This document shows positions 18,766 through 37,226 of a DNA stretch of 64,000 nt, one piece after another; the stretch's first letter is position 1; every line of letters starts with the position of its first letter. This DNA comes from a bacterium (lineage in GTDB: Bacteria > Armatimonadota > Zipacnadia > Zipacnadales > UBA11051). The notes below the pieces were generated by a model. The model searched no databases and was not told where the DNA came from. It was given only the letters and a program-made list of their open reading frames with translations. The stretch is from NCBI GenBank assembly GCA_021372615.1, contig JAJFUB010000085.1:124001-188000 (forward strand), read 5' to 3'. A program made the position numbers and the translations under genes.

Positions 18766-19149
18766 TCACGCGCCGGCCCCATGGCTACGCGGGCTCACGC
18801 GCAAGGGTCTGACACGGATGCGCGTATCGGTCACCACTGCGAAGTGGCCCTCGCCAAGCCTCGCGAGTTCAGGCATCGCCCGCCGCAGGATTGGCAGATT
18901 CGCAGTCATGTCGTCACTGCTGAGTCGCAGCAGAATGATGCCAATGGGGGCAAGCCCACGGGCATACACCAACTCGCCAAAGTCTTTGTCGGCGGTCACG
19001 AGCACACGGTGTTCTGTGACCGCAAGCTGCAATACCTCAGTGTCCGGCCACTGCCGATGGACGTCCTGGCCCCATGCCACGTCGTGCCCCAGTTCTCTCA
19101 GGGCCTCGACGAACTCGCGCTCGATGTTCTCATCGGCCAGGAGCCTCAT
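18766..19149 (-). CDS. DUF5615 PIN-like protein (putative toxin)
   Basis: A 127-residue PIN-like protein starting MRLLADENI, with later acidic residues in VLVTADKDFGELV, the arrangement of the DUF5615/Mut7-C nuclease-like family. It lies 9 bases downstream of a DUF433 gene; in many genomes this pair forms a toxin-antitoxin module with DUF5615 as the likely RNase. The predicted role is inferred from family and context. Confidence 0.8.
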   Translation of the reverse strand: MRLLADENIEREFVEALRELGHDVAWGQDVHRQWPDTEVLQLAVTEHRVLVTADKDFGELVYARGLAPIGIILLRLSSDDMTANLPILRRAMPELARLGEGHFAVVTDTRIRVRPLRVSPRSHGAGA

Positions 19150-19158
19150 GCGCCGTCC

Positions 19159-19395
19159 TCACGCCGTGGTGACCAACTCGTCCAGACTCACCGCATCGGA
19201 AGCATAGGTGAGGGCCGCCAGCACATCTTCGGCTTGCAGCTTCGGGTAGCTATGGAGGAGTTGCTCCATCGTGACGCCGTTGCCGAGCTTGCGGAGGATG
19301 AGCTCGACGGTGATGCGAGTGCCAGCAACAACAGGCTTGCCCATCATCACGTCCGGATCACGGGTGATGCGTCCCTGCCAGCTCATGGTTGACAC
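19159..19395 (-). CDS. DUF433 protein (putative antitoxin)
   Basis: A 78-residue protein with the DUF433 signature: ITRDPDVMMGKPVVAGTRI and a helix-turn-helix-like C-terminal half (LLHSYPKLQAEDVLAALTYA). It precedes the DUF5615 gene by 9 bases. The pair sits between the S4/mazG genes and ppdK, an insertion into otherwise housekeeping DNA. Confidence 0.85.
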   Translation of the reverse strand: MSTMSWQGRITRDPDVMMGKPVVAGTRITVELILRKLGNGVTMEQLLHSYPKLQAEDVLAALTYASDAVSLDELVTTA

Positions 19396-21632: not shown

Positions 21633-22718
<1,086 letters not shown>

Positions 22719-23510: not shown

Positions 23511-24296
23511 TCAACCCACCCGTAGCTCGCGGTGGATCGCGGCCCGCAGGCGCGCCGTGGCCTGCGTGTGGATCTGGCACACGCGGGATTCCGTTACCCC
23601 CATGATCTGACCGATCTCCTTGAGTGTCAGCTCCTGCTCATAGTACAGACTCATTATGGTACGTTCACGTTCTGGAAGCCCCCCCACCGCCTGTGCCACC
23701 AGCCGCCGCAACTCCGCCTTCTCCACGATCGCCAGCGGGTCGGCAAAGTCCTCGGACGGCTCGCCCGGAGCATAGTCGCTGGTCTCGTACGGCTCCTCGC
23801 CCGCCAACAGCTCTTCCAGCGAGGCCACCGAGGCCGTGCTGGCCTCCGACAGGAAGCGATGGTACTGCTCCAGCGTCATCTCCATCGCCTCGGCGACTTC
23901 CTCTTCCTCGGGGGCCCGGACGAGCTGCGCCTCCAGTTGGCTGACGACCTCGGCCAACTGCCGCAGGCGCCGCCGCATGCTACGCGGCGCCCAGTCCTTG
24001 GCCCGCAGCGACTCCATGACCTCCCCACGCACCACCGTCGTCGCGTAGGTCTCGAACTTCACCCCCCGCCCGGGGTCGAAGCGGTCCACGGCCTTGATGA
24101 GCCCGAGGATGCCGGCCGACACCAGGTCCTCGCGGTCCACGTTGGCCGGCAGTTGGGTGCTGATCCGCCCCACCACGTACTTGACGATGTGCACGTGGTC
24201 GCGAATGGTCTGCTCGCGCAAGGCGGGCGTGCCGCACCAGGATACTGCCACCTGCGAGGTCGCGGGTGGCCTCAGGGCCACTGCTGCCAAGGCCAT
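23511..24296 (-). CDS. fliA: FliA/WhiG-type RNA polymerase sigma factor
   Basis: An alternative sigma factor of the flagellar class, 261 residues. Region 2 is visible (VDREDLVSAGILGLIKAVDRFDPGRGVKFETYA), as is region 4 (LPERERTIMSLYYEQELTLKEIGQIMGVTESRVCQI). Its ATG shares one base with the flhA stop (TGATG), so it is translationally coupled to the export genes. In flagellar systems this factor drives late filament genes and is held by FlgM; no flgM or flagellin gene is present in the window. A TTG one codon earlier is an alternative start. Confidence 0.92.
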   Translation of the reverse strand: MALAAVALRPPATSQVAVSWCGTPALREQTIRDHVHIVKYVVGRISTQLPANVDREDLVSAGILGLIKAVDRFDPGRGVKFETYATTVVRGEVMESLRAKDWAPRSMRRRLRQLAEVVSQLEAQLVRAPEEEEVAEAMEMTLEQYHRFLSEASTASVASLEELLAGEEPYETSDYAPGEPSEDFADPLAIVEKAELRRLVAQAVGGLPERERTIMSLYYEQELTLKEIGQIMGVTESRVCQIHTQATARLRAAIHRELRVG

Positions 24297-26290
24297 CAAC
24301 TCCCCGCCGCCGGTGCCGCCACCGGACCGGTCTCGTATTCGGGCAGCGCGCCCATGCTCAGCACTTCGGTGAGCGGCAGCAACTCGCCCGCGCGCACCAC
24401 TGCCACCACGGCGCCCGCTTCCCGTGCCAACTCCGCCACCGCCGGCCGCAGCTCAGGCGGACACAGGACTACGGCCCCCGTGGCCGACTCCGCATGCTGC
24501 CGCTGGGCCCGGCGCAGCGCCTCGCGCCAGTGCTCGGCCCGCTCGGGGGGCAAGGCCACCGCCGCCCCGTCGCCCGCCGCCTGCATAGCGGTCCGCAGCT
24601 CCTGCTGCATCCCCTCGGTCAGTGCCAGCGCGCAGAGCGTTCCTTCGGGCGCCACCAGCCGCGTGATGGTCCGCTGCAGTGCCGGGCGCACGCGCTCGGC
24701 CAGGTCGGCCGCCGGCCCCGCCTCCGCTATCGCCTCCAGCAGCGATACGCGCTCCACAAGCGGCACCCGCTCGGCCAGCAGCGCCCGACCCACCTGCCGC
24801 AACTCCTGCTCTGTCAGGCCGGCTGCCTCGTAGGCCCGCGCCACGGCCGGATGGCTCACGCGCACCATCTCCAGCAGTTCGTGCGCCCGCTGCAGGTCGA
24901 ACAACTCGGGGGCCGCCCCCGACAGCGCCGACCGCACGTACAGCGCCAGCGCTTCCCGCGGCGACAGCCGCTGCGTCCCGTCCTCCGCACCAGGATCGTC
25001 ATCGGCCTCGCGCAGCCACGTCGCACGGCGGCCATCGGGCAGGACGACCTGCTCGCCCTCCGGCAGTGCGAGGCTTCGGGCAGGCGCCACGGCCAGTTGC
25101 CGTCCCGGCCGCAGCGGAGCCTGCGCCAGTACGGCGCCGTTGAGGGCGATGGCGAAGTCATGCGGCGGCAGCGTCGGGTCATCACTGACGACGAACGTCG
25201 GCACAGCGAACCCCAGTTCATCGGACAGCGCCACACGCTGCCGGTTCAGCCACTGGATCAGGTCCGGCTGGGCCGTCAGCGACAGCAGGCCGGCGCCCAG
25301 TCGCAACTGCAGCGTCACGGGGGGCTCGGACGCCGGTGCTTCAGGCACGCGCCGCTTCGTGGCATAGTACGCCAGGCCGCCGACGGCGGCAGCGCCGATC
25401 AGCAGGGGCGCACGGCCTGCGCCCGGCGCCAGGGCGACGGCCAGCAGCGCCACGGCGACCGTGACCAGCAACCCGGGTTGCAGCAGCACCCGGCCGAGGC
25501 TCCCGGCGGCATCGGCGGCCCGGGTGCGCGACAGCACCACGGCCGCGCCGGCCATCGTGAGCAGTCCCGGAGCCAGCACGACGATCCCCAGCCCCAGCGA
25601 GAAGACGACGGCCTCCGTCCAGCCCAGCGCCGTCGCCCCGCCCGGCGCCAACGCCGCCAGGGGCGCCACGACCACGATCACGGCGACCGCCAGCATCTCA
25701 CCTCGCAGGAAGCGCGCGGCGCCGTCCATCGCCCCGTAGAAGGCGTTCTGGGTCTGCAACGCCTCGGCCCGGGCCGCCCCGGCCTCCGCCTCCAGCCGGC
25801 CACTGCCCAGAGCCGCGTCCAGCGCCATCTGCTGCCCCGGCAGCGCATCCAGCGCAAAGCGCGCCGCCACCTCCGCCAGGCGCATGAGCCCCAGGCTCAG
25901 GACCACGTACGAGGTCAGCATGAGCAGCCCCAGGGCGACGACACCACCAATGGGGTTCTCGCCTGCGGACGTCAGCATTCCCCCCAGCGTCTGCGCCAGT
26001 GTCCCGACGGTGCCGTAGGCCAGCAGGCTGCGCGCCGCCGCCAACGCCAGCGCCACCCGCACCATGCTGCCCACCACCAGCACCCCCGGCAGCGACGGGA
26101 AGCCCAGCGGCCCCTCCGCCGACAGTGCCACGAGCAGCACCGCCAGACCGAAGGCCAGGCTCGCGGTCAGGAGCAGGTCGAGCACGAAGGGCGGCAGCGG
26201 CAGCAGTAGCACCAGCAGCGCCAACAGGCCCGCCAAAGCCACCAGGTGCTCGCGCGACCAGCGCACCCGCTGCAGGGCACTCCCATTCAT
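24296..26290 (-). CDS. flhA: Flagellar-type export gate protein FlhA
   Basis: A 664-residue type III export gate subunit. The first 300 residues hold about eight membrane helices, with the FHIPEP-region pattern RLAEVAARFALDALPGQQMALDA. The conserved Lys before the Ala-rich part is lost, but Arg and Asp are kept. A cytoplasmic domain from about residue 330 has the usual receptor features, including LTEQELRQVGRALLAERVPL. It is directly downstream of flhB with three bases between. It would bind chaperone-substrate complexes and couple the proton-motive force to export. Confidence 0.92.
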   Translation of the reverse strand: MNGSALQRVRWSREHLVALAGLLALLVLLLPLPPFVLDLLLTASLAFGLAVLLVALSAEGPLGFPSLPGVLVVGSMVRVALALAAARSLLAYGTVGTLAQTLGGMLTSAGENPIGGVVALGLLMLTSYVVLSLGLMRLAEVAARFALDALPGQQMALDAALGSGRLEAEAGAARAEALQTQNAFYGAMDGAARFLRGEMLAVAVIVVVAPLAALAPGGATALGWTEAVVFSLGLGIVVLAPGLLTMAGAAVVLSRTRAADAAGSLGRVLLQPGLLVTVAVALLAVALAPGAGRAPLLIGAAAVGGLAYYATKRRVPEAPASEPPVTLQLRLGAGLLSLTAQPDLIQWLNRQRVALSDELGFAVPTFVVSDDPTLPPHDFAIALNGAVLAQAPLRPGRQLAVAPARSLALPEGEQVVLPDGRRATWLREADDDPGAEDGTQRLSPREALALYVRSALSGAAPELFDLQRAHELLEMVRVSHPAVARAYEAAGLTEQELRQVGRALLAERVPLVERVSLLEAIAEAGPAADLAERVRPALQRTITRLVAPEGTLCALALTEGMQQELRTAMQAAGDGAAVALPPERAEHWREALRRAQRQHAESATGAVVLCPPELRPAVAELAREAGAVVAVVRAGELLPLTEVLSMGALPEYETGPVAAPAAGS

Positions 26291-26293
26291 TAC

Positions 26294-27010
26294 TTACGGT
26301 CTCCTTCGCAATCGGTGCTGCAGCCACTCACTGACCCGCCGCCGCTTCAGCCACGCCCCCTCGGTCTCCCGCCGGTCCTCCAGCATCTCGCGGTGGCTCA
26401 TCTGCGCCCGGCTCAGGTAGCTCAGCCGTGTCGCCACACCATGCAGGATCGCCACCGCCACCAGCACCGCCAGCCAGCGCCACCACAACGCCAGCGCCCC
26501 CGACGATCCGCGGGGATCGGGCCATGCGGTCTGTGCCGACAGCCCCTGCAGCCAACTGCGGAGCAGCACGGCAAGTGCGCACAGAGCTAATAGGCCCAAC
26601 CAGAACGACATCACAGAGAAACGGGGACGACTTGCGCCGGCATCGTGAGTCATCGGCAGATACATCTGTTTACTTGAGCGTTGCACAACGCCGCCCTGGG
26701 CGATCTGAGCCAGGAGGGCCACCCCCATTGCCCCCAGGGCCACCAGTGCAACCGCGAGTCCGCCCTGCAGCAGCCGCGTCGCCAGCAGCCCCGGCAGCGC
26801 CGCTGCCTCTACCATCGGGCGCTGCAGATCCTGCGCCAGCAGGCCCGCGAGCCAGCCGCAGAGCCTCCCGCCCAGCAGCACCAGCCCGCCGGTCGCGGCC
26901 ACGATCGCCACGGCCGCCGTCACGGCCGCACTCGCAGGGCTGAGCCCCGTCTGGCGCAGTCGCTCCAGCCGCCGGGGCGTCGCAGGATAGCGCTTGATCT
27001 CGTCGCTCAT
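26294..27010 (-). CDS. flhB: Truncated FlhB-like export switch protein lacking the NPTH autocleavage domain
   Basis: A 238-residue protein matching only the first two thirds of FlhB (usually 350-380 residues). It has the N-terminal ATPRRLERLRQTG, four hydrophobic spans, and the linker signature MSHREMLEDRRETEG at residues 204-218. It then stops after a basic helix. FlhBC, with the self-cleaving Asn-Pro-Thr-His loop that switches substrate specificity, is entirely absent. There is no room for a frameshifted remnant, since flhA starts three bases later. Gene order fliR-flhB-flhA is otherwise normal. Either the switch is provided by a separate protein or the system has no switch. Confidence 0.85.
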   Translation of the reverse strand: MSDEIKRYPATPRRLERLRQTGLSPASAAVTAAVAIVAATGGLVLLGGRLCGWLAGLLAQDLQRPMVEAAALPGLLATRLLQGGLAVALVALGAMGVALLAQIAQGGVVQRSSKQMYLPMTHDAGASRPRFSVMSFWLGLLALCALAVLLRSWLQGLSAQTAWPDPRGSSGALALWWRWLAVLVAVAILHGVATRLSYLSRAQMSHREMLEDRRETEGAWLKRRRVSEWLQHRLRRRP

Positions 27011-27025: not shown

Positions 27026-27766
27026 TTACCCCAGTGTCGCCAGCCACCGAGCTGTCACGTCGGCCACGACGCTGACCTGGTGCAACAGCACCGCCCCCAG
27101 CAGCGGGGCGACCACGCCCAACGCCAGCAGCGTCACCAGGGCGCGGGCGGCCGGTAGCACCTCCGCCGCCCGCAACTCGGGCAGGACGCGCTGCAGGCTG
27201 CTGACCATCAGGGCAGCCAGCACCGTCCCCAACACCACCGGCCCGGCCAGTTGCAGGAGCCCCGTGAAGAACAGGCTAGGCCAATACACCCACGAGGCCG
27301 CTGCCGTCAGGTCGGCGGCCTGCCCCGGCGGCAGCAGGACATATGACTGCCGGAAGAACGCGACGAGCCAGTGCAGGCCGTTGAGCTGCACGAAGAACAC
27401 CAGAACCAGCACGGTGAAGAGCCCCGCCAGCGGTCCGTCCTCCTCGTCCGCGGCGGCGAAGCCGCCCACCACGTCCTGCAGGTGCCCGGCAGCGAATGCC
27501 CCCCACACCAGCAGCCAGAGCCCGAGACCCATCAGCAGGCCCACCGCCGCCTCGCGCGCCACCGCTGCCACATACTCAGGCATCGTGAGGGCCAGAGGCG
27601 CTCCTGCCGGCGCGATGGCCAGAGCCAGCGGTCCCGTCAGCACCGCCGCCACCGCCAGGCGCAGCGACGGGGGGAAGTGCCGCCACCCCGTGGGCGGCGC
27701 CAGGGCCAGCAGCCCGGCCGCCCGTGCGAACACCAGACCCCACACCGGCCACAGGGCAGGCATCAT
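27026..27766 (-). CDS. fliR: Flagellar-type export apparatus protein FliR
   Basis: A 246-residue membrane protein with five to six hydrophobic spans. Family-like segments are LWPVWGLVFARAAGLL at the start and FVQLNGLHWLVAFFRQSY in the middle (the FliR gate region). FliR forms the export gate with FliP and FliQ in the inner membrane. Its ATG overlaps the fliQ stop (ATGA), and flhB follows by 15 bases. Confidence 0.9.
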   Translation of the reverse strand: MMPALWPVWGLVFARAAGLLALAPPTGWRHFPPSLRLAVAAVLTGPLALAIAPAGAPLALTMPEYVAAVAREAAVGLLMGLGLWLLVWGAFAAGHLQDVVGGFAAADEEDGPLAGLFTVLVLVFFVQLNGLHWLVAFFRQSYVLLPPGQAADLTAAASWVYWPSLFFTGLLQLAGPVVLGTVLAALMVSSLQRVLPELRAAEVLPAARALVTLLALGVVAPLLGAVLLHQVSVVADVTARWLATLG

Positions 27767-28038
27767 CGCGCGTGCACCAGGGAGGCGGCCGCCAGCCAGA
27801 GCGAGCCCCAGTAGCCGCACGACAGGCTCAGCATCCACGCCCCGAACAGCGCCAGCGCCACGCCTGCCGCCAGGAGCTTCGGCGCCAGGAGACTGCTCTG
27901 GTCGCTGAGCCCCAGGAGGTTCTGTAGGTAGGCGCCCAGCAGTCCGGCGGCCACAATCGCCGCCAGCAGCGGCAGCGACAACCACAGGGCCATCAGCAGT
28001 GCGTTCTGGAGCAGTGCGCTCCCGGCAGCCCAGTACAT
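27763..28038 (-). CDS. fliQ: Flagellar-type export apparatus protein FliQ
   Basis: A 91-residue protein with two membrane helices, the usual size. The central AAIVAAGLLGAYLQNLLGLSDQS fits the FliQ signature. It is the first gene after the inserted opposite-strand lipoprotein gene, so fliQ and the genes after it may need their own promoter. No convincing minus-strand promoter is seen in 28039-28188. Confidence 0.88.
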   Translation of the reverse strand: MYWAAGSALLQNALLMALWLSLPLLAAIVAAGLLGAYLQNLLGLSDQSSLLAPKLLAAGVALALFGAWMLSLSCGYWGSLWLAAASLVHAR

Positions 28039-28188: not shown

Positions 28189-29037
28189 ATGGCTGCGCGC
28201 TTGCTGTGCATCATGGCTTTGCTGGCGGTCGTGCTCCTGAGCGGCTGCGGTGGCGGCGACAGCGACCCTGTGCTCATCGCGGGCAACTACTTTCCTCTCA
28301 CCGTCGGCGCGGTGTGGGTCTACAACACCATACTCGAGGCGGAGACCCCCACCGATGAGTTCACCACGACCGGCACCATGACGCGGACGCTGGTGGGGAC
28401 CCAGGACCTCCAGGTGGACGGAGCGACGGCCACCACGTACGTCTTCCGCCACGACTACACGACCAACGCCGTCCCCGACCTCACCGGCGGCGCGTCCGTG
28501 GACGTCGCCCCCTTTATCAACCATCTGTTTGCGGCCGACGGCGGCCTGCATTCGGTGCTGGCCTGCTACCGCACAGTGGCCGCCACCGCCGATACGCCGG
28601 CCCACATTGAGGTGGTCGCCGTAGCGCGCGTGGGTGAAGCAAACGTGTCGGTGCCCGAACCGCGCCCCTTCCTGTACAACCCGCCCTACCAGGGCACCAT
28701 GCACAATGGCAGCACCTGGTTTGTGCCCATGCCCCTGATGCCGTTCATCACCGAGATGACTGGCTTCGAGCAGAACGACAAGACGCTCAACTATGGTGTC
28801 CTCGGCGGCATTGGCGATGCCGCCAACACCATCGTCAACATCAGCTACTACGCCGCCGATCTGAACGTGGACGGCAGCACCGCCGCTATCGCCGGGCGCG
28901 GTCGCAACTACTGCAAGGATGGCGTCGGCTTCTGGGGCGGTGAGGTCCAGAGCGACTGGTACGCCACCATCAACGTCCACGGCAACACCTCGCGCGTGAC
29001 CTCGCAGGCCGAGCTTGTGTCCTTCACCATGCCCTGA
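28189..29037 (+). CDS. Predicted lipoprotein inserted antisense into the export operon
   Basis: A 282-residue protein with a lipoprotein signal (MAARLLCIMALLAVVLLSGC, lipobox LSGC) followed by a Gly/Asp linker and a beta-rich domain starting with YFPLTVGAVWVYN, a pattern seen in secreted beta-barrel-like repeats of unknown role. I do not recognise the family. It lies between fliP and fliQ on the opposite strand, with its own promoter and terminator-like hairpin. GAGGTG is eight bases before the ATG. Whether it serves the export system or is an unrelated insertion is unknown. Confidence 0.75.
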   Translation: MAARLLCIMALLAVVLLSGCGGGDSDPVLIAGNYFPLTVGAVWVYNTILEAETPTDEFTTTGTMTRTLVGTQDLQVDGATATTYVFRHDYTTNAVPDLTGGASVDVAPFINHLFAADGGLHSVLACYRTVAATADTPAHIEVVAVARVGEANVSVPEPRPFLYNPPYQGTMHNGSTWFVPMPLMPFITEMTGFEQNDKTLNYGVLGGIGDAANTIVNISYYAADLNVDGSTAAIAGRGRNYCKDGVGFWGGEVQSDWYATINVHGNTSRVTSQAELVSFTMP

Positions 29038-29067: not shown

Positions 29068-29100
29068 GGGCGAGGCTTCGGCCTCGCCCTGTTCCGCTAC
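29068..29100. terminator. UUCG hairpin with GTAG foot between the lipoprotein gene and fliP
   Basis: A nine-base stem GGGCGAGGC/GCCTCGCCC with a TTCG loop lies between two convergent stop codons and can serve both. On the minus strand GTAG (29100-29097) lies seven bases before the stem, and its TAG is the fliP stop codon, as in the REP elements. Confidence 0.65.
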
Positions 29101-29819
29101 TGGAGGCTGCTCAGCAGCGCGTACGCCAGCAGTCGCCACCCATCCACCATCACAAACAGCAGCACTTTGAACGGCAGCGCGACGACTGACGCGGGCAGGG
29201 ACACTAGCCCCAGCGAGGCCACCGTGCCCGCCACCACCAGGTCGATCACCACGAACGGCAGATAGATCACAAGGCCGATGATGAACGCCGCCCGCAGCTC
29301 CGAGATGGCGTAGGCGGCGGCCAGCGTGTGGAGCGCCGGCAGCCCTTGCGGTGCGGGCGACGGCTCGAACCCCTGGAACAGCCGCAGGTCCTCCACCCGG
29401 GTGTGGGCCGTCAGGAACGCCCGCGACGGCGCCTGTGTCGCCTCCCAGGCCGCCCCGAGGCTCATCTCCCCGGCCAGTAGTGGCTGCGCCGCGCGGTCGT
29501 TGATCTCGCGCAACGTGCCGGACATGCTGAAGGCAGTGAGCAGAAGAGCGAGGCCGATCAGGACGGGGTTGGGGATGAGCGGTTGGGAACTTAGCCCTGC
29601 CCGCAGGAAGAACAGCACGATCACGATGCGGGCGAAAGAGGTCATGACGGCGAGCAGCGCCGGCGCCAGCGACACCGACGCGAACAGCAGGATCAGCCGC
29701 AGGTAGGACGTGGCGTCCGTCGCCCCGAGGTTGACTGCCACCGGGGCGCCGCCACGCGCACTCGCCGCCGAAGCGCAACCGAGGACGACTACCGCCACGG
29801 CGAGCCAGCGCGCTCTCAC
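29097..29819 (-). CDS. fliP: Flagellar-type export apparatus protein FliP
   Basis: A 240-residue protein with a signal-type N-terminus (cleavage near ASA) and later membrane helices. Conserved segments include VMTSFARIVIVLFFLR, GLALLLTAFSM, and ALPFKVLLFVMVDGW near the C-terminus. It forms the core of the export gate with FliQ and FliR. Its ATG overlaps the fliO stop (ATGA). Normally fliQ follows at once; here a foreign gene on the other strand separates them. Confidence 0.92.
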   Translation of the reverse strand: MRARWLAVAVVVLGCASAASARGGAPVAVNLGATDATSYLRLILLFASVSLAPALLAVMTSFARIVIVLFFLRAGLSSQPLIPNPVLIGLALLLTAFSMSGTLREINDRAAQPLLAGEMSLGAAWEATQAPSRAFLTAHTRVEDLRLFQGFEPSPAPQGLPALHTLAAAYAISELRAAFIIGLVIYLPFVVIDLVVAGTVASLGLVSLPASVVALPFKVLLFVMVDGWRLLAYALLSSLQ

Positions 29820-30202
29820 CGGGCATCGCCCTCTTCCCCATCGTCGACGGACGCGGCTGGCACCTCCGGCGGCACTTCAGTCGCCGCCACCCCTCCGGGG
29901 CCACAGGTCAGCGCCAACAGTTTCCGCCCCACGCGCACCACGTGGAGCACATAGCCCCCGTGCAGGGGCACCGACTGCAGCAACTCCGCCGGGCCGGACG
30001 GCGCCGCGCCCATGCATCCCGGCCCCACGCGCCGCAGCAGCCAGTACACGCCGTAGATGAGAGCGATGACCAGCGCCAGGCTCAGCAGCGCTTGGAGCAG
30101 GTAGTGGCCGGGCGCATAGGGCAGCCCCGGCGTGGGCGCTGCCGGCTGGGCCGAGGCCACGGCGCAGACAGCCCCCGCGAATCCGATGGCACTTAGCCTC
30201 AT
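29816..30202 (-). CDS. fliO: Flagellar-type assembly protein FliO
   Basis: A 128-residue protein with a signal peptide (cleavage near ASAQP), a short periplasmic part, one membrane helix (LLSLALVIALIYGVYWLLR) and a small cytoplasmic domain with LLQSVPLHGGYVLHVVRVGRKLLAL, typical of FliO. FliO stabilises FliP during gate assembly. The tail is acidic. Gene order fliN-fliO-fliP is standard. Confidence 0.85.
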   Translation of the reverse strand: MRLSAIGFAGAVCAVASAQPAAPTPGLPYAPGHYLLQALLSLALVIALIYGVYWLLRRVGPGCMGAAPSGPAELLQSVPLHGGYVLHVVRVGRKLLALTCGPGGVAATEVPPEVPAASVDDGEEGDAR

Positions 30203-30203
30203 G

Positions 30204-30506
30204 TCACAGCCCCGAGGCCGAGACCTGCGTGATCCGCACTCCCAGGTCGTTGTCCACTCGCACCAGCTCCCCCAGGGCGATGACCCGGTCGCCCACCATG
30301 ATCTCCGCGGGTTCGCCCACTTCCCGGTCGAGCAGCAGCACGGAGCCGACCTCCAGTTCGAGCAGTTCGCGCAGGGCCAGTCGGGTTGACCCCAGGCGCA
30401 CCGTCACCTGCAGCGGGACCTCTGACAGCGCCGTCAGTTGCGGCTCCGTCGCAGGCTGGAACTGATCCGCCATCCTTACCGGCACATCCGTGTCATACAA
30501 AGCCAC
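30204..30506 (-). CDS. fliN: Flagellar switch/C-ring protein FliN
   Basis: A 100-residue protein consisting essentially of one SpoA (FliMN_C) domain: LSEVPLQVTVRLGSTRLALRELLELEVGS, then VGDRVIALGELVRVDNDLGVRI, a close FliN match. The GTG at 30506 has GGGAGG at seven bases upstream and overlaps the fliM end; an ATG at 30473 would give 89 residues. FliN forms the base of the C-ring and docks FliH for export. Confidence 0.88.
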   Translation of the reverse strand: MALYDTDVPVRMADQFQPATEPQLTALSEVPLQVTVRLGSTRLALRELLELEVGSVLLLDREVGEPAEIMVGDRVIALGELVRVDNDLGVRITQVSASGL

Positions 30507-30508
30507 TG

Positions 30509-31312
30509 TCACGCCTCCCTGCCCCCCTCCACATGCTGGATGCTGATGGCCAGCGTCGCGCCTTTGGCGCCAATGCGTCCCCACGCCACGGGCGCGCCGT
30601 TGGCCCGGAGAATGCTCTGCTGATCGCCAGCTCCGAGAGCCAGCACGTCCCCCGGCTGCATCTCCAGCAACTCGCGCGGCGTCACCGGCGGCGCCACCAC
30701 GACAGCTTCCACCACCACCGGCGCGTCGGCGAGTTCCTCCCGCTGCAGTCGCTGCCCCCCCTCGGGCGGCGTGAGACACGCGCGCAGGTCGGCCCACGGC
30801 ACTGTCAGTACCACCTCGCCGCCAGCGGGGCCGTGCGCCACGTGCATCCGCCACGCCACCACTGCCTCCGCACCCGCCGGGACAGGGCCCCGGGCCAGCA
30901 CCGGGCTCGGGGGGCTTCCGGCCAGACGCAGCTCCCGCCCGAGGTCTGCAGCAAGTGCCCGGGCGGGCAACTGCAACAGGCGCAGGTCCAGATCGGTGAG
31001 GGCGTGCTCGGCTAGTTCGTCCTGCCCCAGTTGCGCCGCCAGCAGCGCCGTCGTGGCCGTGGGCGACAGCAGCAGCCGCCAGGCCCCCCCGTGCGGCCAT
31101 GTGGCGGCGACAGCCCAGAAGCCCGCCTCGAGCCGCCGGGGTTGCCAGTCCGGCTCGGGGGCCGGCGTACAGGTCACCCCGAACGAGGCGAAGGCTGCCA
31201 CCAGCAAGTGCTGCACCCGGGCCCCGAGGACTTGCAGGGAGGCCTCCTGGGCATGCGAGGGTGCCTCGACCGACGGCGGCTCGTAGCGCTGGGCGACATC
31301 GCTTGTAGGCAT
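30509..31312 (-). CDS. fliM: FliM-like C-ring protein without the CheY-binding peptide
   Basis: A 267-residue protein, shorter than usual (about 330). The C-terminal SpoA domain is clear (EELADAPVVVEAVVVAPPVTPRELLEMQPGDVLAL). The middle part resembles the CheC-like FliM core only weakly. The N-terminus (PTSDVAQRYEPPSVE) lacks the LSQDEIDALL-like motif that binds phosphorylated CheY. It is in the usual place before fliN. FliY or a SctQ-like protein are alternatives. Confidence 0.7.
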   Translation of the reverse strand: MPTSDVAQRYEPPSVEAPSHAQEASLQVLGARVQHLLVAAFASFGVTCTPAPEPDWQPRRLEAGFWAVAATWPHGGAWRLLLSPTATTALLAAQLGQDELAEHALTDLDLRLLQLPARALAADLGRELRLAGSPPSPVLARGPVPAGAEAVVAWRMHVAHGPAGGEVVLTVPWADLRACLTPPEGGQRLQREELADAPVVVEAVVVAPPVTPRELLEMQPGDVLALGAGDQQSILRANGAPVAWGRIGAKGATLAISIQHVEGGREA

Positions 31313-31317
31313 GGGCT

Positions 31318-31728
31318 CTACTCCGGCGCATAGCGCTGTGCGTGTTCGTCAGCGAGGGCCTGCTTCTGGCGCTGCTGGCGCGCTCGCCGTCCTTCGGCCA
31401 GCCGACCGATCAGGCGCTCGAGAGTCCGGCGCGTCTGGGCCACCCGCCGCCACCTGAGGCGGTCTGTCGCCACCCGGCCCCGGGCCTCGCGCAGGGCCTG
31501 CTGCAACTCCTGACACTGCCGTTCCACCAGAGCGGCATAGCGGTCACGATGGCAGAGCGCCGCCGCGGTGCCGGCTTCCGCCAGCGGGCGGCGTGCTTGC
31601 GCGGCCTGCAACTCCCCCTCGACCTGCCGGCAGGCCAGCAGACTGCGCTCGACTTCGCCTTGCAGGGCGCGCTCCTGGCCCGCGATGGACCGGAGCAGCC
31701 GTCCGAACCGTGCGGCGGAGTCAGGCAT
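31318..31728 (-). CDS. fliJ: FliJ-like coiled-coil export chaperone
   Basis: A 136-residue, almost entirely helical protein rich in Arg, Gln, Glu and Ala. Heptads are visible through ALREARGRVATDRLRWRRVAQTRR. Sequence identity to FliJ is low, but the length, composition and position (after fliI, overlapping by 8 bases) match. FliJ sits in the ATPase ring like the gamma subunit of F1. Confidence 0.72.
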   Translation of the reverse strand: MPDSAARFGRLLRSIAGQERALQGEVERSLLACRQVEGELQAAQARRPLAEAGTAAALCHRDRYAALVERQCQELQQALREARGRVATDRLRWRRVAQTRRTLERLIGRLAEGRRARQQRQKQALADEHAQRYAPE

Positions 31729-33121
31729 GTGCCACCTGCCTCTCCCCGTCCCCAGCCGGCCCCATGAGCGCCAGCAGCCGCCGCCGGGCGTCGGACGGAT
31801 CGGCGTATTCGTGCTGCCCCTGTCGCAGGAACTGCATCATGTCCGGTCGCCGGCGGACCGCCAGATCGGCCAGCGGGCGCGCCCCGGGACGGTAGGCACC
31901 CACAGCGATCAGGTCCTCGACCTCGCGGTGCGCCGCCAACAGCTCTCGGAAGGCCGCCGCGGCCTGGGTGTGCGGCTCGTCCACCAGGCGGGACATCAGC
32001 CGCGAGACGCTGCCGCTGACATCCACGGCCGGGTAGTGCCCCCGGTCGGCCAACTCGCGGGTCAGGTGGATGTGGCCGTCGAGGATGGCACTGACCGCAT
32101 CGGCCACCGGCTCCTGCAGGTCATCCCCCTCCACCAGCACGGCATAGACGCCGGTGATGCTGCCGGTCGCCCCGCTGCCGGCGCGCTCCAGCAGCCGCGC
32201 CAGGAACTCGTACATGGAGGCGGGGTAGCCGCGCGTGGTGGGCGCCTCCCCGGCCGCCAGACCGACCTCGCGCTGCGCCCGGGCCAGCCGCGTCAGCGAG
32301 TCCACAATCAGCAACACATCGAGGCCCTGGTCCCGGAAGTGCTCGGCGATGGTCGTGGCCGTCAGCCCGGCGGCGATGCGCACCAGGGCCGGCTCGTCCG
32401 ACGTCGCCGCCACGACGACCGAGCGCGCCAGACCCTCGCCGAGGTTGACCTCCAGAAAATCGCGCACCTCACGCCCCCGCTCGCCGACCAGCCCCACGAC
32501 GGCCACGTCCGCGGTGTGATAGCGCGCCATCATGCCCAGCAGCGAACTCTTGCCGACCCCCGCGCCCGAGAAGATGCCCAGGCGCTGCCCCTTGCCACAG
32601 GTCAGCAGCGTGTCCACGGCGCGCACGCCGAAGTGCAGCGGCTCGACGATGCACTGCCGCCCCAAAGGCGGCGGGGGAGCGCTCTCGACGGGGCGCAGCA
32701 CCGTCTCTCCCAGATCGCCCTTGCCATCGATAGGGCGACCGAAGGCATCCAGAACCCGCCCCAGAATGCCACGACCGATGGGCACGCTCAGCGCCCGCCC
32801 CGTCGCCGTCACCGGGCAGCCGGGGGCCACGCCGCCCATGCGCCCCAGCGGCAGCAGCAGCGTGTAACCGTGCCGGAAGCCGACCACCTGCGCCGCGATC
32901 TCCGGCGCGCTGTCGGTGGGGCGGATGTGGCAGATCTCCCCCACGCGCGCGGCCGGGCCTTCAGCCAGGACCGTATGGCCCGACACCTCGGCGACCTTGC
33001 CCGTGGCCCGCATCCGGGGCAAGCCCGACACTCGCGCGGCCAGAGCCCGCAGCCGCTCGCGCTCCTGTGTGATGGTCGCCGCCGACTCAGCCGCCGCGTA
33101 CGCGCACATGACCTCATCCAT
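31721..33121 (-). CDS. fliI: Flagellar-type export ATPase FliI
   Basis: A 466-residue ATPase homologous to F1-beta. It has the Walker A loop GIFSGAGVGKSSLLGMM, GERGREVRDFLE, Walker B DVLLIVDSLTRLARAQREV, and PASMYEFLARLLERAG, diagnostic of FliI. The catalytic Glu is in GERGRE. The chosen ATG overlaps the fliH stop by eight bases; the ORF extends upstream through fliH in another frame. It unfolds and releases export substrates from their chaperones. Confidence 0.94.
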   Translation of the reverse strand: MDEVMCAYAAAESAATITQERERLRALAARVSGLPRMRATGKVAEVSGHTVLAEGPAARVGEICHIRPTDSAPEIAAQVVGFRHGYTLLLPLGRMGGVAPGCPVTATGRALSVPIGRGILGRVLDAFGRPIDGKGDLGETVLRPVESAPPPPLGRQCIVEPLHFGVRAVDTLLTCGKGQRLGIFSGAGVGKSSLLGMMARYHTADVAVVGLVGERGREVRDFLEVNLGEGLARSVVVAATSDEPALVRIAAGLTATTIAEHFRDQGLDVLLIVDSLTRLARAQREVGLAAGEAPTTRGYPASMYEFLARLLERAGSGATGSITGVYAVLVEGDDLQEPVADAVSAILDGHIHLTRELADRGHYPAVDVSGSVSRLMSRLVDEPHTQAAAAFRELLAAHREVEDLIAVGAYRPGARPLADLAVRRRPDMMQFLRQGQHEYADPSDARRRLLALMGPAGDGERQVAHA

Positions 33122-33653
33122 TGTACGAAGCCGCCAGGGCCTCGCGCAGAGTGGCCAACTGGGTCTGCAAGGTGGCGTCGAAGCCTCCCCGGTCGCTATC
33201 GAGGCGACAGCCGCCGCGCTCGATGCTCGGGTCGGCGATGAACTCCAGTTGCGCCGCCTGCTCCTGCCAGGCGGCCTGGTGCTCCTGCAGGTGCGCCAGA
33301 TCATCCGGATGCAGGCGCGCCACGATCTTCGTCGCGAAGTGCAGGTTCTGCAGGGCTTGCGCCAGTGTGTGCTCGATGACTGTGGGGTCGGCCGTGACCT
33401 CGTGGCGGACGATCTCGCGGGCGACGGACAGGGCCAGTTCGAGGATCTCGGGCCTGATCTGCATGAGGAGCCGCGCCCGCTCCTGCACCATCTCCTCGGC
33501 GATGCGCCCCAGCAGCCGCAAGTGTCGCTCCGGGTCGCCGGCGTCCGGCGGCGCCGGCGCGGCGAGCGTGCGGGCAGGCTCGATCTCCTCGTGGAAGGGG
33601 CGGATCGTCCCCACCTTGCCCTGCAGTTCGCTCTGCCGCAGCAGTCCGCGCAT
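33114..33653 (-). CDS. fliH: FliH-like ATPase regulator
   Basis: A 179-residue protein with a helical centre (GRIAEEMVQERARLLMQIRPEILELALSVAREIVRHEV), the FliH/HrpE signature, and the C-terminal half LHPDDLAHLQEH then EFIADPSIERGGCRLDSDRGGFDATLQTQL. It binds FliI and links it to FliN. Slightly shorter than average because the glycine-rich N-terminal helix is missing. Confidence 0.87.
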   Translation of the reverse strand: MRGLLRQSELQGKVGTIRPFHEEIEPARTLAAPAPPDAGDPERHLRLLGRIAEEMVQERARLLMQIRPEILELALSVAREIVRHEVTADPTVIEHTLAQALQNLHFATKIVARLHPDDLAHLQEHQAAWQEQAAQLEFIADPSIERGGCRLDSDRGGFDATLQTQLATLREALAASYNG

Positions 33654-33675: not shown

Positions 33676-34509
33676 CTAGGTGCCTGTGTTGAGGCGCTCC
33701 TGCAACTCGTGCACGAGCGCCCGCGCCACGCGGGCGTCCGTCGGCCGCGTGGGAAGCCCGACCTCGACCTGCCGCCGTCCCAACTCCCGCTGCAGCCAGC
33801 GGCCGGCCCGTGGACCGGCGAGGCTCACCACCAGCCCGCGCACTTCCGGCCGCTCGCCCTGCAGTAGACCTGCCAGGCGGCCACCGTCACGCAGGATCAG
33901 CGCGTCCAGTGGGTCGTCGGGCTGGCGTCTCCACCCTCGCCTCAGCACCGCCGCGACCCCGACGGCGATCACCAGCGCCGTCCCGACGAGCGCGCCCGGC
34001 AAGAGCGGGCCCAGTGGCGCCGTCACGTCCCCTCGCCGCTCGGCCTGCACCTGCCCCCGCGTCACGAGCATCCGGCCATCGGCCGAGGCGATGTTGAGTC
34101 GTTCGGGGGCCAGGCCAGGGACCGCACCGAGGATGAGTTGCACGAGGCTCTGGAGCGTTCGCAGGTCGAGGGTCTCCCCGGGGCGTAGCTGCACCACGAT
34201 CTGAGCGCTCAGATCGCGGCCTGCTTCACCGGAGAGCAGCACTTCGCTCTTCTGGATCGGGCGGAAGCCACGGAGCAGGGCGGTGAGCTGGCGGTCCAGG
34301 GCCGCATTGGCCACCGGCAGGGCAAACGGCGCTGGAGCGAAGCTGAAGGGGTTGGGGGGCGTGGCAGAGCTTGGCGCAGCAGCGGGGGTAGTACGCGTGA
34401 CGGCAGGCCCCGCCAGGACCTGCGTGGTCTGAGAACCGACAACGATGAGATACAGAGAAGCGACCAACAGCCCCCGCGCGCACCGTTCCCGGATGCGCAG
34501 TACGGTCAT
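33676..34509 (-). CDS. Reduced FliF-like ring protein with FliG-like C-terminal tail
   Basis: A 277-residue protein, half the length of FliF. An N-terminal hydrophobic segment (12-33, signal or anchor) is followed by a Pro/Ala-rich linker. One ring-building motif (68-150) ends with LVQLILGAVPGLAPERLNIASADGR, matching RBM2 of FliF/YscJ. A membrane helix (166-189) follows. The cytoplasmic tail (205-272, LAGLLQGERPEVRGLVVSLAGPRAG) resembles the middle domain of FliG (EHPQ motif as ERPE). RBM1, RBM3/beta-collar and FliG's torque helix are missing. It sits where fliF-fliG would be and starts the operon, preceded by GGGGGA. The FliG resemblance is my reading and weaker than the FliF one. SctJ-like protein is an alternative name. 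Confidence 0.65.
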   Translation of the reverse strand: MTVLRIRERCARGLLVASLYLIVVGSQTTQVLAGPAVTRTTPAAAPSSATPPNPFSFAPAPFALPVANAALDRQLTALLRGFRPIQKSEVLLSGEAGRDLSAQIVVQLRPGETLDLRTLQSLVQLILGAVPGLAPERLNIASADGRMLVTRGQVQAERRGDVTAPLGPLLPGALVGTALVIAVGVAAVLRRGWRRQPDDPLDALILRDGGRLAGLLQGERPEVRGLVVSLAGPRAGRWLQRELGRRQVEVGLPTRPTDARVARALVHELQERLNTGT

Positions 34510-34602: not shown

Positions 34603-35982
34603 TTAGCCTGCCATTGCTTCTACCTCATCGGACAGTGTCTCCACGAACGCCTCGACCACTGGGCCGCTCAGCTTCGTCTCCACGCAGGACCGCAGTTCCA
34701 CCACGGCGACGTCCGGCGACAGCGCGGGCCGATAGGACCGTTCCGAGGTCATGGCATCGTAGCTGTCGCACACGGCGATGATCCGCGAGGCCAGGGGGAT
34801 CTCCTCCTGGCGCAGGCCGAAGGGATAGCCGCTGCCGTCGCCGCGCTCGTGGTGGTAGCGTATGCCACCCACCAGGTGTTGTAGCTGCGGGATGCAGTTG
34901 ATGATTCCCGCGCCCTGCTCGGGATGGCTGCGGATGGCTTCCCACTCCTCCCCCGTCAGGCGCCCCGTCTTGCACAGCACCGTCCGCTCGATCCCGATCT
35001 TGCCGATGTCGTGCACAATGCCGGACATGTAGACAGCCTCGGCCTCGCGGTCGGGCAGCCCCAGAAGGCGGGCCGTGTGTCGCGCTGCCTGGGCCACGCG
35101 GCGGGAGTGGCCGCAGGTGTAGGCGTCCTTGATCTCGATGGCGGCCACCAGGGCCTGGATCGTGTTGAGGAACATGCCGCGCAGGTCGTCCACCAGACTG
35201 CGGTTGCGGAGGGCCAGGGCGGCCTGGTGTCCGGCGGCCTGCACCAGCTTCGCTTCGCGCGAGGTGAACGGGCGCCCGGCGTCGCGCGCCAGCGCCATCA
35301 GCCCACTCCACCGCTCATCACGCTGCAGGCCACTGACGAGCACCTGGCGATCCTGCAGGGGCAGAGCGAAGGGCTCTCGCCCCGCCGGCAGCCGCTTGGC
35401 CGACGGCGCCAGGTATCCCCGGATGGCCTCCATCTCCTCGTCCGACATGCCCTGAATCGCCAGCGGCTGCACTCCCCGGGACTTGTCCAGACACAGAAGG
35501 CAGGCCCCGTCAGCCCCGGCCGCCGCAGCCACGCGCGACAGCAGGGCCTGTGCCATCTCTTCACGCGAACTGGGCAGGCTGATGGTCTCCATGATCCCGT
35601 ACGCGATAGCCAGTTCCTGGTAGGTCGCCGTCAGCTCCCGCACGGTAGCCTCGACGTCCTCAGCGGCCCGCACATGGCACTCGAAAGCATGGGTGAGAGC
35701 ACCCATGATCTCGGGGGCCGGCTGGCGAGCCGAGCCCGCGTAGCAGGCCCGCAGCGACAGGTCCGCCGAGCCGGCCACAGGGGCCTCGGCCGCCGCAGGG
35801 CAGGCCCCGTCGGCCTCGACGAGCGGGCAGGCCCCGGGACGCACGCACGTAGGAAGCACAGGCGGCAACACCCCCCGAACTCGCTCGCGTCCGTCAGAGT
35901 ACACCGCCCAGTACAGCCCCAGCGCACACGACAGGTGGGCCAGGGCCACCGAGAAGTCATCGTTCCCGCGGTTGGCGATCAT
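34603..35982 (-). CDS. GAF and HD-GYP domain protein (probable c-di-GMP phosphodiesterase)
   Basis: A 459-residue signalling protein. After a Cys-rich N-terminal region (about 1-100, CVRPGACPL and others, possibly metal- or redox-binding) come a helix and a GAF domain (about 125-270). The HD-GYP domain follows, with HSRRVAQAARH, GIVHDIGKIGI, YHHERGDGSGYPFGL and SRIIAVCDSYDAMTSERSYR. All metal ligands of an HD-GYP hydrolase are present, so it likely degrades cyclic di-GMP. It is placed between the response regulator and the export operon. Confidence 0.88.
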   Translation of the reverse strand: MIANRGNDDFSVALAHLSCALGLYWAVYSDGRERVRGVLPPVLPTCVRPGACPLVEADGACPAAAEAPVAGSADLSLRACYAGSARQPAPEIMGALTHAFECHVRAAEDVEATVRELTATYQELAIAYGIMETISLPSSREEMAQALLSRVAAAAGADGACLLCLDKSRGVQPLAIQGMSDEEMEAIRGYLAPSAKRLPAGREPFALPLQDRQVLVSGLQRDERWSGLMALARDAGRPFTSREAKLVQAAGHQAALALRNRSLVDDLRGMFLNTIQALVAAIEIKDAYTCGHSRRVAQAARHTARLLGLPDREAEAVYMSGIVHDIGKIGIERTVLCKTGRLTGEEWEAIRSHPEQGAGIINCIPQLQHLVGGIRYHHERGDGSGYPFGLRQEEIPLASRIIAVCDSYDAMTSERSYRPALSPDVAVVELRSCVETKLSGPVVEAFVETLSDEVEAMAG

Positions 35983-35991
35983 GGCCCTGCT

Positions 35992-36474
35992 TCACACCCC
36001 GTCCACCAGCGCGACCAGCGCCCGCGGGTCAGGCGGCTTGGTCAGCACTCCATTGATGTACGGCCGCAGGTCCTGCATGACTTCGGCTTCGGCTAGAATG
36101 CCCGTCAGTACGCAGATGCGCGTGCGCTCCAGACCCGGCACGGCCCGCAGAGCGCGGCAGACTTCGGCCGCAGGCGGCCCGGGCATTTTGAGGTCAATGA
36201 TGATGAGGGCGGGCAGGACTTCGCTTGCCAGGTCGAGGGCCTCCTGCCCGTCGCGCGCGGCGTACACCCGGACACACCGCGCCTCCCGGAGGATGCAAGC
36301 CACGGCCCGGCACACGAAGATGTCGTCATCCACCACCAGCACGACGGGCTGATGGGTGGCCGGCGCTTCCTCGGCCAGGTGGTGCAGATGCAGTACGCCG
36401 CGGTCGGCGCCGCCCTCGGGCGGCCTCCCCCGGGCATTCTGTACGTCCCGTTTCGGGATGGCTTCGGCGGACAT
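35992..36474 (-). CDS. Single-domain response regulator (CheY-like)
   Basis: A 160-residue protein with an intact receiver after a 40-residue polar N-terminal extension: VVLVVDDDIFVC (acidic pocket), phospho-Asp in LIIIDLKMPG, Thr in ICVLTG and Lys in GVLTKPPDP. No output domain. The start ATG comes two bases after the stop of the kinase-like gene, and the HD-GYP gene follows 9 bases later, so the three form one unit. Confidence 0.9.
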   Translation of the reverse strand: MSAEAIPKRDVQNARGRPPEGGADRGVLHLHHLAEEAPATHQPVVLVVDDDIFVCRAVACILREARCVRVYAARDGQEALDLASEVLPALIIIDLKMPGPPAAEVCRALRAVPGLERTRICVLTGILAEAEVMQDLRPYINGVLTKPPDPRALVALVDGV

Positions 36475-36476
36475 GG

Positions 36477-37226
36477 CTAGGCCGATCTCTCCAGACGACT
36501 GTCTTCCAGCACACCGCGCACCCGGCCGACCCGCGGCAGGCGAAGCTGCAGACACATCCCGCAGCCGGTCTCCAGCGTCGCTTCGCCGCCGCGCTGGCGC
36601 ACCAGCACTTCCGCGGCCCGGAAGGCGAAGCTCTCGGCGGCGCGGGACGGCTCACAGCGCGCGCTCGACAGCTCCACGGTCACTTCCTCCTCGGACGTCT
36701 CCGTGACTGTCACCATCAGACACGCGTTGCCTTTGGCGGCTTCCAGGGCGGTCTCGAGCACGGCCGTGAGCAGTTGCTGCAGCACCCCCTGGGGCCAGAT
36801 GACCATCGTCTCGGCCGGCCGCTGCCAATCCACCCGGAAGTCCTGGAGCTGGATCACGTCCTGCAGATCGGCCAGGGCAGCGTCCACCGCCAGACCCAGG
36901 TCCACCTCGTCGAGGTCATCCGACAACGGCGGGGCCGCCAACGCCAGGAAGCTGGAGGCCAACCGGCCCAGACGGCGCGCCTCCGCCAGGATGGTGTAGG
37001 CATACGACTCCCGCACGCTCGGCTCCAGGTTCGGCAGCCAGGCCAGGCATTCGGCGTAGCTGCAGATGGCCGTCAGCGGTGAGCGGATGTCGTGGTCCAT
37101 CTGCCGTGCCAGCGTCGGAAAGCTGTTATCGCCGGGGAAGTAATGCCCCCGACTGTCCAGGATCATCCGCATCAATGCACCCCAGCTGCCCCCAACCAGG
37201 GGGGAGTCGGTAGCCTTATCGGCCAC
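36477..37226 (-). CDS. Histidine kinase-like protein with degenerate ATPase domain
   Basis: A 249-residue soluble protein. The dimerisation and phosphoacceptor site is clear: RQMDHDIRSPLTAICSYAE (His in the H-box near residue 45). The following ATPase-like part lacks a recognisable N-box Asn and the DxGxG G1 box; only a final hydrophobic strand pattern (CGMCLQLRLP) remains. It may act as a phosphotransfer protein or bind another kinase. Adjacent to a single-domain response regulator. Confidence 0.7.
   Translation of the reverse strand: MADKATDSPLVGGSWGALMRMILDSRGHYFPGDNSFPTLARQMDHDIRSPLTAICSYAECLAWLPNLEPSVRESYAYTILAEARRLGRLASSFLALAAPPLSDDLDEVDLGLAVDAALADLQDVIQLQDFRVDWQRPAETMVIWPQGVLQQLLTAVLETALEAAKGNACLMVTVTETSEEEVTVELSSARCEPSRAAESFAFRAAEVLVRQRGGEATLETGCGMCLQLRLPRVGRVRGVLEDSRLERSA

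Follow-up and report, generated by a model that had tools for sequence, protein, structure and literature searches.

A truncated FlhB lacking its autocleaving domain belongs to a second, inherited flagellar-type export apparatus in one class of Armatimonadota

The window analysed here, a stretch of 64,000 nucleotides, carries in one direction the genes mini-fliF, fliH, fliI, fliJ, fliM, fliN, fliO, fliP, fliQ, fliR, flhB-N, flhA and a gene for a FliA/WhiG-type sigma factor. The flagellar export gate, the ATPase complex and the C-ring SPOA proteins are all represented in this system with a truncated FlhB, as listed below in the order of the operon.

33676..34509, minus strand: mini-FliF, with a signal/transmembrane helix, one RBM2-like ring-building domain, a second transmembrane helix and a C-terminal FliG-like helical domain (PF01514, 30.5 bits; Foldseek; AF2)
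33114..33653, minus strand: FliH, the ATPase stator (PF02108, 91 bits)
31721..33118, minus strand: FliI export ATPase (ATP-synt_ab, 275 bits; T3SS_ATPase_C, 77 bits; FliI/YscN family model over its cut-off), containing the Walker A motif GAGVGKS; the ORF is open to 33304, with the likely start near 33118
31318..31728, minus strand: FliJ (PF02050, 28.5 bits, barely over the cut-off)
30509..31312, minus strand: FliM-like protein with a C-terminal SPOA domain (PF01052, 47.9 bits), conserved in relatives
30204..30512, minus strand: FliN (PF01052, 77 bits, matched in the last ~70 residues); start inferred, the ORF being open upstream to 31331
29816..30202, minus strand: FliO (PF04347, 20.5 bits, slightly under the cut-off), its position conserved in complete loci
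29097..29819, minus strand: FliP (PF00813, 195 bits)
27763..28038, minus strand: FliQ (PF01313, 41.6 bits)
27026..27769, minus strand: FliR (PF01311, 92 bits); ORF open to 27985, start inferred
26294..27010, minus strand: FlhB-N, the transmembrane domain and the start of the linker; the protein stops ~15 residues short of the NPTH column and has no FlhBC (PF01312, alignment, AF2)
24296..26290, minus strand: divergent FlhA (PF00771, 340 bits), in a clade with 21 others, its chaperone dock lost
23511..24299, minus strand: FliA/WhiG-family sigma factor of the sigma-28 type (TIGR02479, 250.6 bits; cut-off 189.6)

The sigma gene overlaps the end of flhA by 4 bases and comes after the divergent flhA also in those relatives where both genes are covered. 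A scan of the window and of the whole genome for sigma-28 consensus promoters (TAAA-N14-16-GCCGATA) gave no match. Other genes are found in or close to the operon. A lipoprotein-like gene (28189-29037, plus strand) is inserted on the opposite strand between fliP and fliQ; five relatives belonging to its family share the insertion, and no other family was seen to have it. Directly upstream of mini-fliF (34603-37226, minus strand) are genes for a GAF/HD-GYP protein, a response regulator and a histidine kinase, and an HD-GYP gene is also found upstream in one relative (G042, locus L046), which hints at control by c-di-GMP. Elsewhere in the window, a small pair (18766-19395, minus strand) reads by eye like DUF5615 (PIN-like) and DUF433 in a toxin-antitoxin-type arrangement, and the C-terminus of one SurA-like protein is a long tail of Ala-Pro-Gln repeats (21633-21800, minus strand).

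The type III specificity switch is considered to centre on the cleavable domain of FlhB. In the window, the flhB ORF encodes 238 amino acids, of which residues 6-237 align with positions 3-243 of the 335 positions of the PF01312 profile (57.6 bits; cut-off 24.4), and the match stops because the protein itself ends there. The fliR gene ends at 27026, 15 bases ahead of the flhB start, and 3 bases separate the flhB stop from the flhA ORF, which starts at 26290. The reading in the earlier note, that the protein matches FlhB through the linker and then ends without the NPTH loop and FlhBC, with flhA beginning three bases past the stop, is thus borne out, as regards the missing domain both by the profile and by an alignment in which 22 truncated FlhB sequences were set beside 28 full-length ones, all from the phylum Armatimonadota. 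The autocleaving cytoplasmic domain with NPTH is found in none of the 22 truncated sequences, every one of which stops before the NPTH column and misses 100-123 residues; in terms of one full-length protein (L029), NPTH lies at residue 265 and the truncated FlhBs end at the equivalent of residue 249. The last part that they have in common, M-T/S-x-x-E-x(3-4)-E-x-R-E-T-E-G, is well conserved. The AF2 model (pLDDT 81) has four long helices and linker helices, as in the N-terminal transmembrane domain of FlhB/SctU. A Foldseek search with it gave no significant match in the PDB, so the fold assignment rests on the sequence profile. Among the full-length proteins, 7 of 28 carry NPTR, NPTQ, NPTT, NPTE or NPVH in place of NPTH (L004, L010, L016-L018, L021, L025), and autocleavage may therefore vary in the ordinary flagella of the phylum.

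The sample of relatives comprised 61 genomes, the source genome and 60 others. A truncated FlhB, cut at the same place and confirmed by a profile of the truncated form, is present in 25 of them, spread over six families of the class, and complete matches stop at PF01312 position ~225-247; the sister families f4, f6, f9 and f10 are without the apparatus. In 10 of the 25 (G000, G002, G004, G007, G008, G017, G018, G021, G030 and G032, the source genome among them) there is no other FlhB piece, and most of the remaining 15 have a full-length FlhB at a separate locus. About 12 relatives combine the truncated protein with flagellar genes that include their own full-length FlhB (e.g., G001, G010, G019, G022, G031, G041, G042). 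Thus, the truncation is a property of the lineage, shared by 24 relatives, and wherever full-length copies occur they sit at loci other than that of the truncated gene. A 243-amino-acid FlhB of a more distant family (L132 in G148), encoded on a small contig close to an IS110-like transposase, has the look of a flagellar FlhB that was broken and was not counted as a member. Outside the phylum, all frames in the 29 genomes with an FlhB match are 327-439 amino acids long, and in one further phylum the best ~150 FlhB matches are all full length. In the open-licence papers searched, neither a natural FlhB devoid of FlhBC nor such a system in Armatimonadetes is reported, which is weak evidence of novelty.

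The loss of the switch had also been taken to fit the loss of hook and filament genes. In profile searches, the ten genomes with the divergent system only have no match to PF00460 (rod/hook), flagellin, FliG_C or FliE, and the source genome itself has none to PF00460, PF02049 or PF00669 and no FliG_C; a FliI-type ATPase and a divergent FlhA (the latter partial in G007 and G017) are present in all ten. Nearly all relatives with a full-length FlhB match rod/hook, flagellin, FliG_C and FliE. The genomes are mostly drafts, and the strength of these absences lies in the agreement across ten of them. The association is supported for genomes such as this one, but the idea that the domain was lost because hook and filament were lost is not, since the truncated FlhB is present also in relatives with flagellar gene sets.

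The branching pattern of the partner protein provides additional clues on the origin of the system. The FlhA search returned two score classes, flagellar proteins at ~700-890 bits and divergent ones at ~315-475 bits (partial genes lower), the latter found together with the truncated FlhB. The source FlhA scores 311 bits with the NCBIfam FlhA model and 235 bits with that of SctV. In a tree of 70 sequences rooted on four SctVs (rhizobial or environmental), 22 divergent FlhAs from several families form a single clade (SH-aLRT 100) on the flagellar side, adjoining the flagellar FlhAs of the phylum (supports 94 and 80) and apart from the SctVs; neither this placement nor the NCBIfam scores agree with an FlhA of the injectisome SctV type. 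One row of the tree (L163) had an absurd branch length and was excluded from later counts. Within the divergent clade, whose branches are long, families f8 and f7 fall outside and f1, f3 and f5 appear as groups, so that the branching broadly tracks the host families, as expected for vertical descent. Among the matches listed for other phyla, only ordinary flagellar FlhAs were found, at 25-31% identity. The occurrence of the truncation beside a flagellar full-length FlhB, together with the single deep clade of the partner FlhA, places the truncation in an old export system that is paralogous to the flagellar one. The truncated FlhB is thus not a flagellar FlhB decayed after loss of the hook, but part of a second, paralogous export apparatus.

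Several residues of Salmonella FlhA, namely R94, K203, D208 and D249, are reported to be critical for proton-coupled export, and D208E reduces transport without abolishing it (PMC8179193). In Salmonella numbering, R94, R147, R154 and D158 are invariant in all 22 divergent FlhAs; K203 is replaced by R, and position 208 holds E or D. D249, in turn, is replaced by H, Q, L or M, which counts against reading the apparatus as an exporter. The chaperone dock, formed by D456, F459 and T490 (PMC8179193), is replaced or deleted in nearly all of the 22: in most of them L stands at D456 and a gap at F459, and at T490, where 95 of 95 flagellar FlhAs have T, they carry E, A, L and others. Judged from sequence, FlhBC, the dock for early substrates, and the dock on FlhA for flagellar late chaperones are both gone, and most of the membrane engine is kept.

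The ring of the apparatus is also reduced. The mini-FliF is 277 amino acids long, and its PF01514 match covers the last ring domain only. The AF2 model (pLDDT 78, pTM 0.40) shows an N-terminal transmembrane helix, an alpha-beta domain, a second transmembrane helix and a helical C-terminal domain, and in Foldseek it is matched best by structures of FliF RBM2 and the MS-ring, among them the RBM2-inner ring 6sd2 (E 2e-6 and weaker). In FliF, the RBM2 inner ring forms the wall of the pore in which the export gate sits. A FliG_M match was obtained for 2 of 13 mini-FliF homologues (best E 1e-4). RBM1, RBM3 and the collar are absent, and the system does not have a full FliF (RBM1-RBM3 plus collar) with a separate torque-domain FliG. 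In effect, mini-FliF looks like an MS-ring reduced to RBM2 and fused to a FliG-like platform, and the nature of the domain suggests that it forms a ring.

The operon order of the window recurs in families f1, f2, f5, f7 and f8 where contigs are long enough. In family f3 the set is kept but distributed over three loci (fliF-H-I-J-M/N; fliN-O-P-Q-R-flhB-N; flhA-sigma), and the retention of the full gene set through this rearrangement argues for function. The conserved operon contains no substrate, rod, needle or chaperone genes, and no secretin or needle gene was seen in it or in its neighbourhood. The conserved neighbours, which vary by family, look like housekeeping genes (SurA-like, MazG, S4, PPDK and enolase in f1 and f7) and yielded no candidate substrates. 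In family f5 (L038, L042, L048), genes named by eye as OstA/LptD-like and secA follow the sigma gene.

We consider it probable that this truncated form is the regular FlhB of an ancient exporter of one Armatimonadota class, derived from the flagellum but itself non-flagellar, working in one mode and with substrates of its own. With no switch domain in FlhB and no detectable rod, hook or filament, cells without an ordinary flagellum probably export something else through it in a single fixed mode. In the mechanism that we propose, the reduced MS-ring, with its one RBM2-type domain and FliG-like platform, would hold the gate of FliPQR and FlhB-N, which FlhA, FliHIJ and the FliM/N platform would feed. 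Lacking FlhBC, the gate would offer no dock for early substrates of the rod/hook type and no switch operated by FliK, and the machine would accordingly stay in one permanent mode, delivering its own substrates probably to the periplasm or the surface. As the flagellar chaperone site is gone, these substrates are probably its own rather than flagellar late proteins, and the divergent FlhA may use a new dock in place of the lost site. What the sequence analysis shows is the truncation with its conservation, the common ancestry, the short list of parts and purifying selection; protein secretion is inferred. The analysis turned up no substrate, chaperone or outer-membrane part of the apparatus, and the genome scan for sigma-28 promoters gave no match, both of which count against the exporter reading.

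Laboratory mutants of Salmonella provide a parallel. When late export was selected for in the absence of rod and hook, mutations arose in the cleavable FlhB domain, including a stop at 258. With this stop, or with residues 270-383 deleted, late substrates exit although rod, hook and FliK are missing, and the early substrate FlgE is no longer exported (Chevance et al. 2026, PMC13344023). These proteins (stop 258 and deletion 270-383) end at nearly the same place as ours, just before NPTH, and likewise have neither autocleavage nor an ejectable domain. However, they were made in a flagellar system, whereas in Armatimonadota the state is inherited by a clade and the chaperone dock is lost as well. 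By analogy, the apparatus would be unable to take early-type substrates or to switch, in a mode that may resemble the late-locked state of Salmonella FlhB without its C-domain; given the loss of the late-chaperone dock, "late mode" is here an analogy only. Furthermore, the Salmonella effect appeared only with Fluke absent and the system overexpressed, and an FlhB devoid of its C-domain was inferred to assemble inefficiently (PMC13344023). If the analogy holds, the clade must therefore have compensating changes.

In an alternative scenario, which we regard as unlikely, the complex is kept for a role other than secretion, FliPQR-FlhA-FlhB serving as a membrane scaffold, an ion-conducting channel or the foundation of some surface structure, for instance a nanotube. 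A complex of this kind would not need a domain for substrate selection, and the loss of both canonical substrate docks would agree with it, as would an operon devoid of genes for substrate, rod, needle or chaperone. Nevertheless, FliI, FliH, FliJ and most of the energy-coupling residues of FlhA are kept in the subfamilies examined, and in known systems these serve protein export. A decaying flagellum, with FlhB truncated by degeneration, is somewhat less probable still and largely refuted. The missing rod, hook, filament and FliG_C of the source genome and the fast evolution of FlhA would be expected of a remnant, but the truncation point is identical in 22 aligned sequences, the gene set is the same in distant families even after the operon was split, and the system coexists with flagellar gene sets in many relatives. 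Moreover, close pairs show purifying selection, with dN/dS of 0.16-0.33 for FlhB-N and 0.20-0.26 for FlhA (simple counting method, few pairs), which speaks against degeneration.

It is very improbable that another protein, either of the FlhX type or the cell's own flagellar FlhB, provides FlhBC in trans. Stand-alone, FlhX-like C-terminal pieces of FlhB do exist elsewhere in the class and phylum; three genomes (G044, G045, G055) have such pieces, of 107-112 amino acids, beside a full-length FlhB. FlhX resembles the present case in that it splits FlhB-N from FlhBC at nearly the same place, but differs in that the source genome has no FlhX: a six-frame search of this genome (6.4 Mb, 171 contigs, 96.7% complete) gave no second PF01312 match, and so revealed neither a full-length FlhB nor a separate C-terminal piece, which the earlier note had named as something to be sought. 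As nine more genomes are likewise devoid of another FlhB piece, supply in trans is refuted, as far as completeness allows, for the genomes that have only this system. Finally, an assembly error or recent frameshift, conceivable in a draft of 171 contigs, has a negligible probability and is rejected, since the same cut, with its conserved linker end, recurs in the independent assemblies of 24 relatives from six families.

Compared with the flagellum, the system has FliF, FliH-I-J, FliM/N, FliO-P-Q-R, FlhA, FlhB and a sigma-28 gene in common with the flagellar export apparatus, but genomes with the system alone are without rod, hook, filament, FliE and FliG_C, its FliF is cut to an RBM2-like domain, FlhB is without FlhBC and FlhA without the chaperone dock. 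The closest known case is the non-flagellar type III system (NF-T3SS) of the Cystobacterineae (Abby and Rocha 2012), which is described as lacking FlgBCDEK, FliE, FliG, FlgH, MotAB, secretin and needle, and as vertically inherited in a free-living group and first taken for a relic (PMC3459982). The likeness lies in flagellum-related export genes under vertical descent, without rod, FliE, FliG, secretin or needle. In contrast, the myxobacterial system branches with injectisomes and no loss of the SctU C-domain was seen described for it (PMC3459982), whereas the Armatimonadota FlhA branches with the flagellar FlhAs of its own phylum (in the tree rooted on four SctVs), the FlhB is without FlhBC, and the system has a fusion of MS-ring and FliG-like parts and an attached sigma-28 gene.

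In this context, we put forward, as a possibility to be taken tentatively, that the apparatus represents a third line of type III export besides flagellum and injectisome, which would have arisen once from the flagellar apparatus in the ancestor of the class. Such a line would do without rod, needle, filament, FlhB switch and chaperone dock, would hold its gate in a single ring, and would export proteins of a new class, either shaping the cell envelope or released from it.

A clade that has kept its machine without FlhBC since early in the history of the class is a natural test of the minimum that an export gate requires, and the late-lock model derived from the Salmonella mutants becomes testable in nature. 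Beside the myxobacterial system, it is an independent second case of a flagellar apparatus turned to another use. For Armatimonadota, a poorly studied phylum, it means that one lineage has inherited over a very long time a second, stripped-down flagellar export machine.
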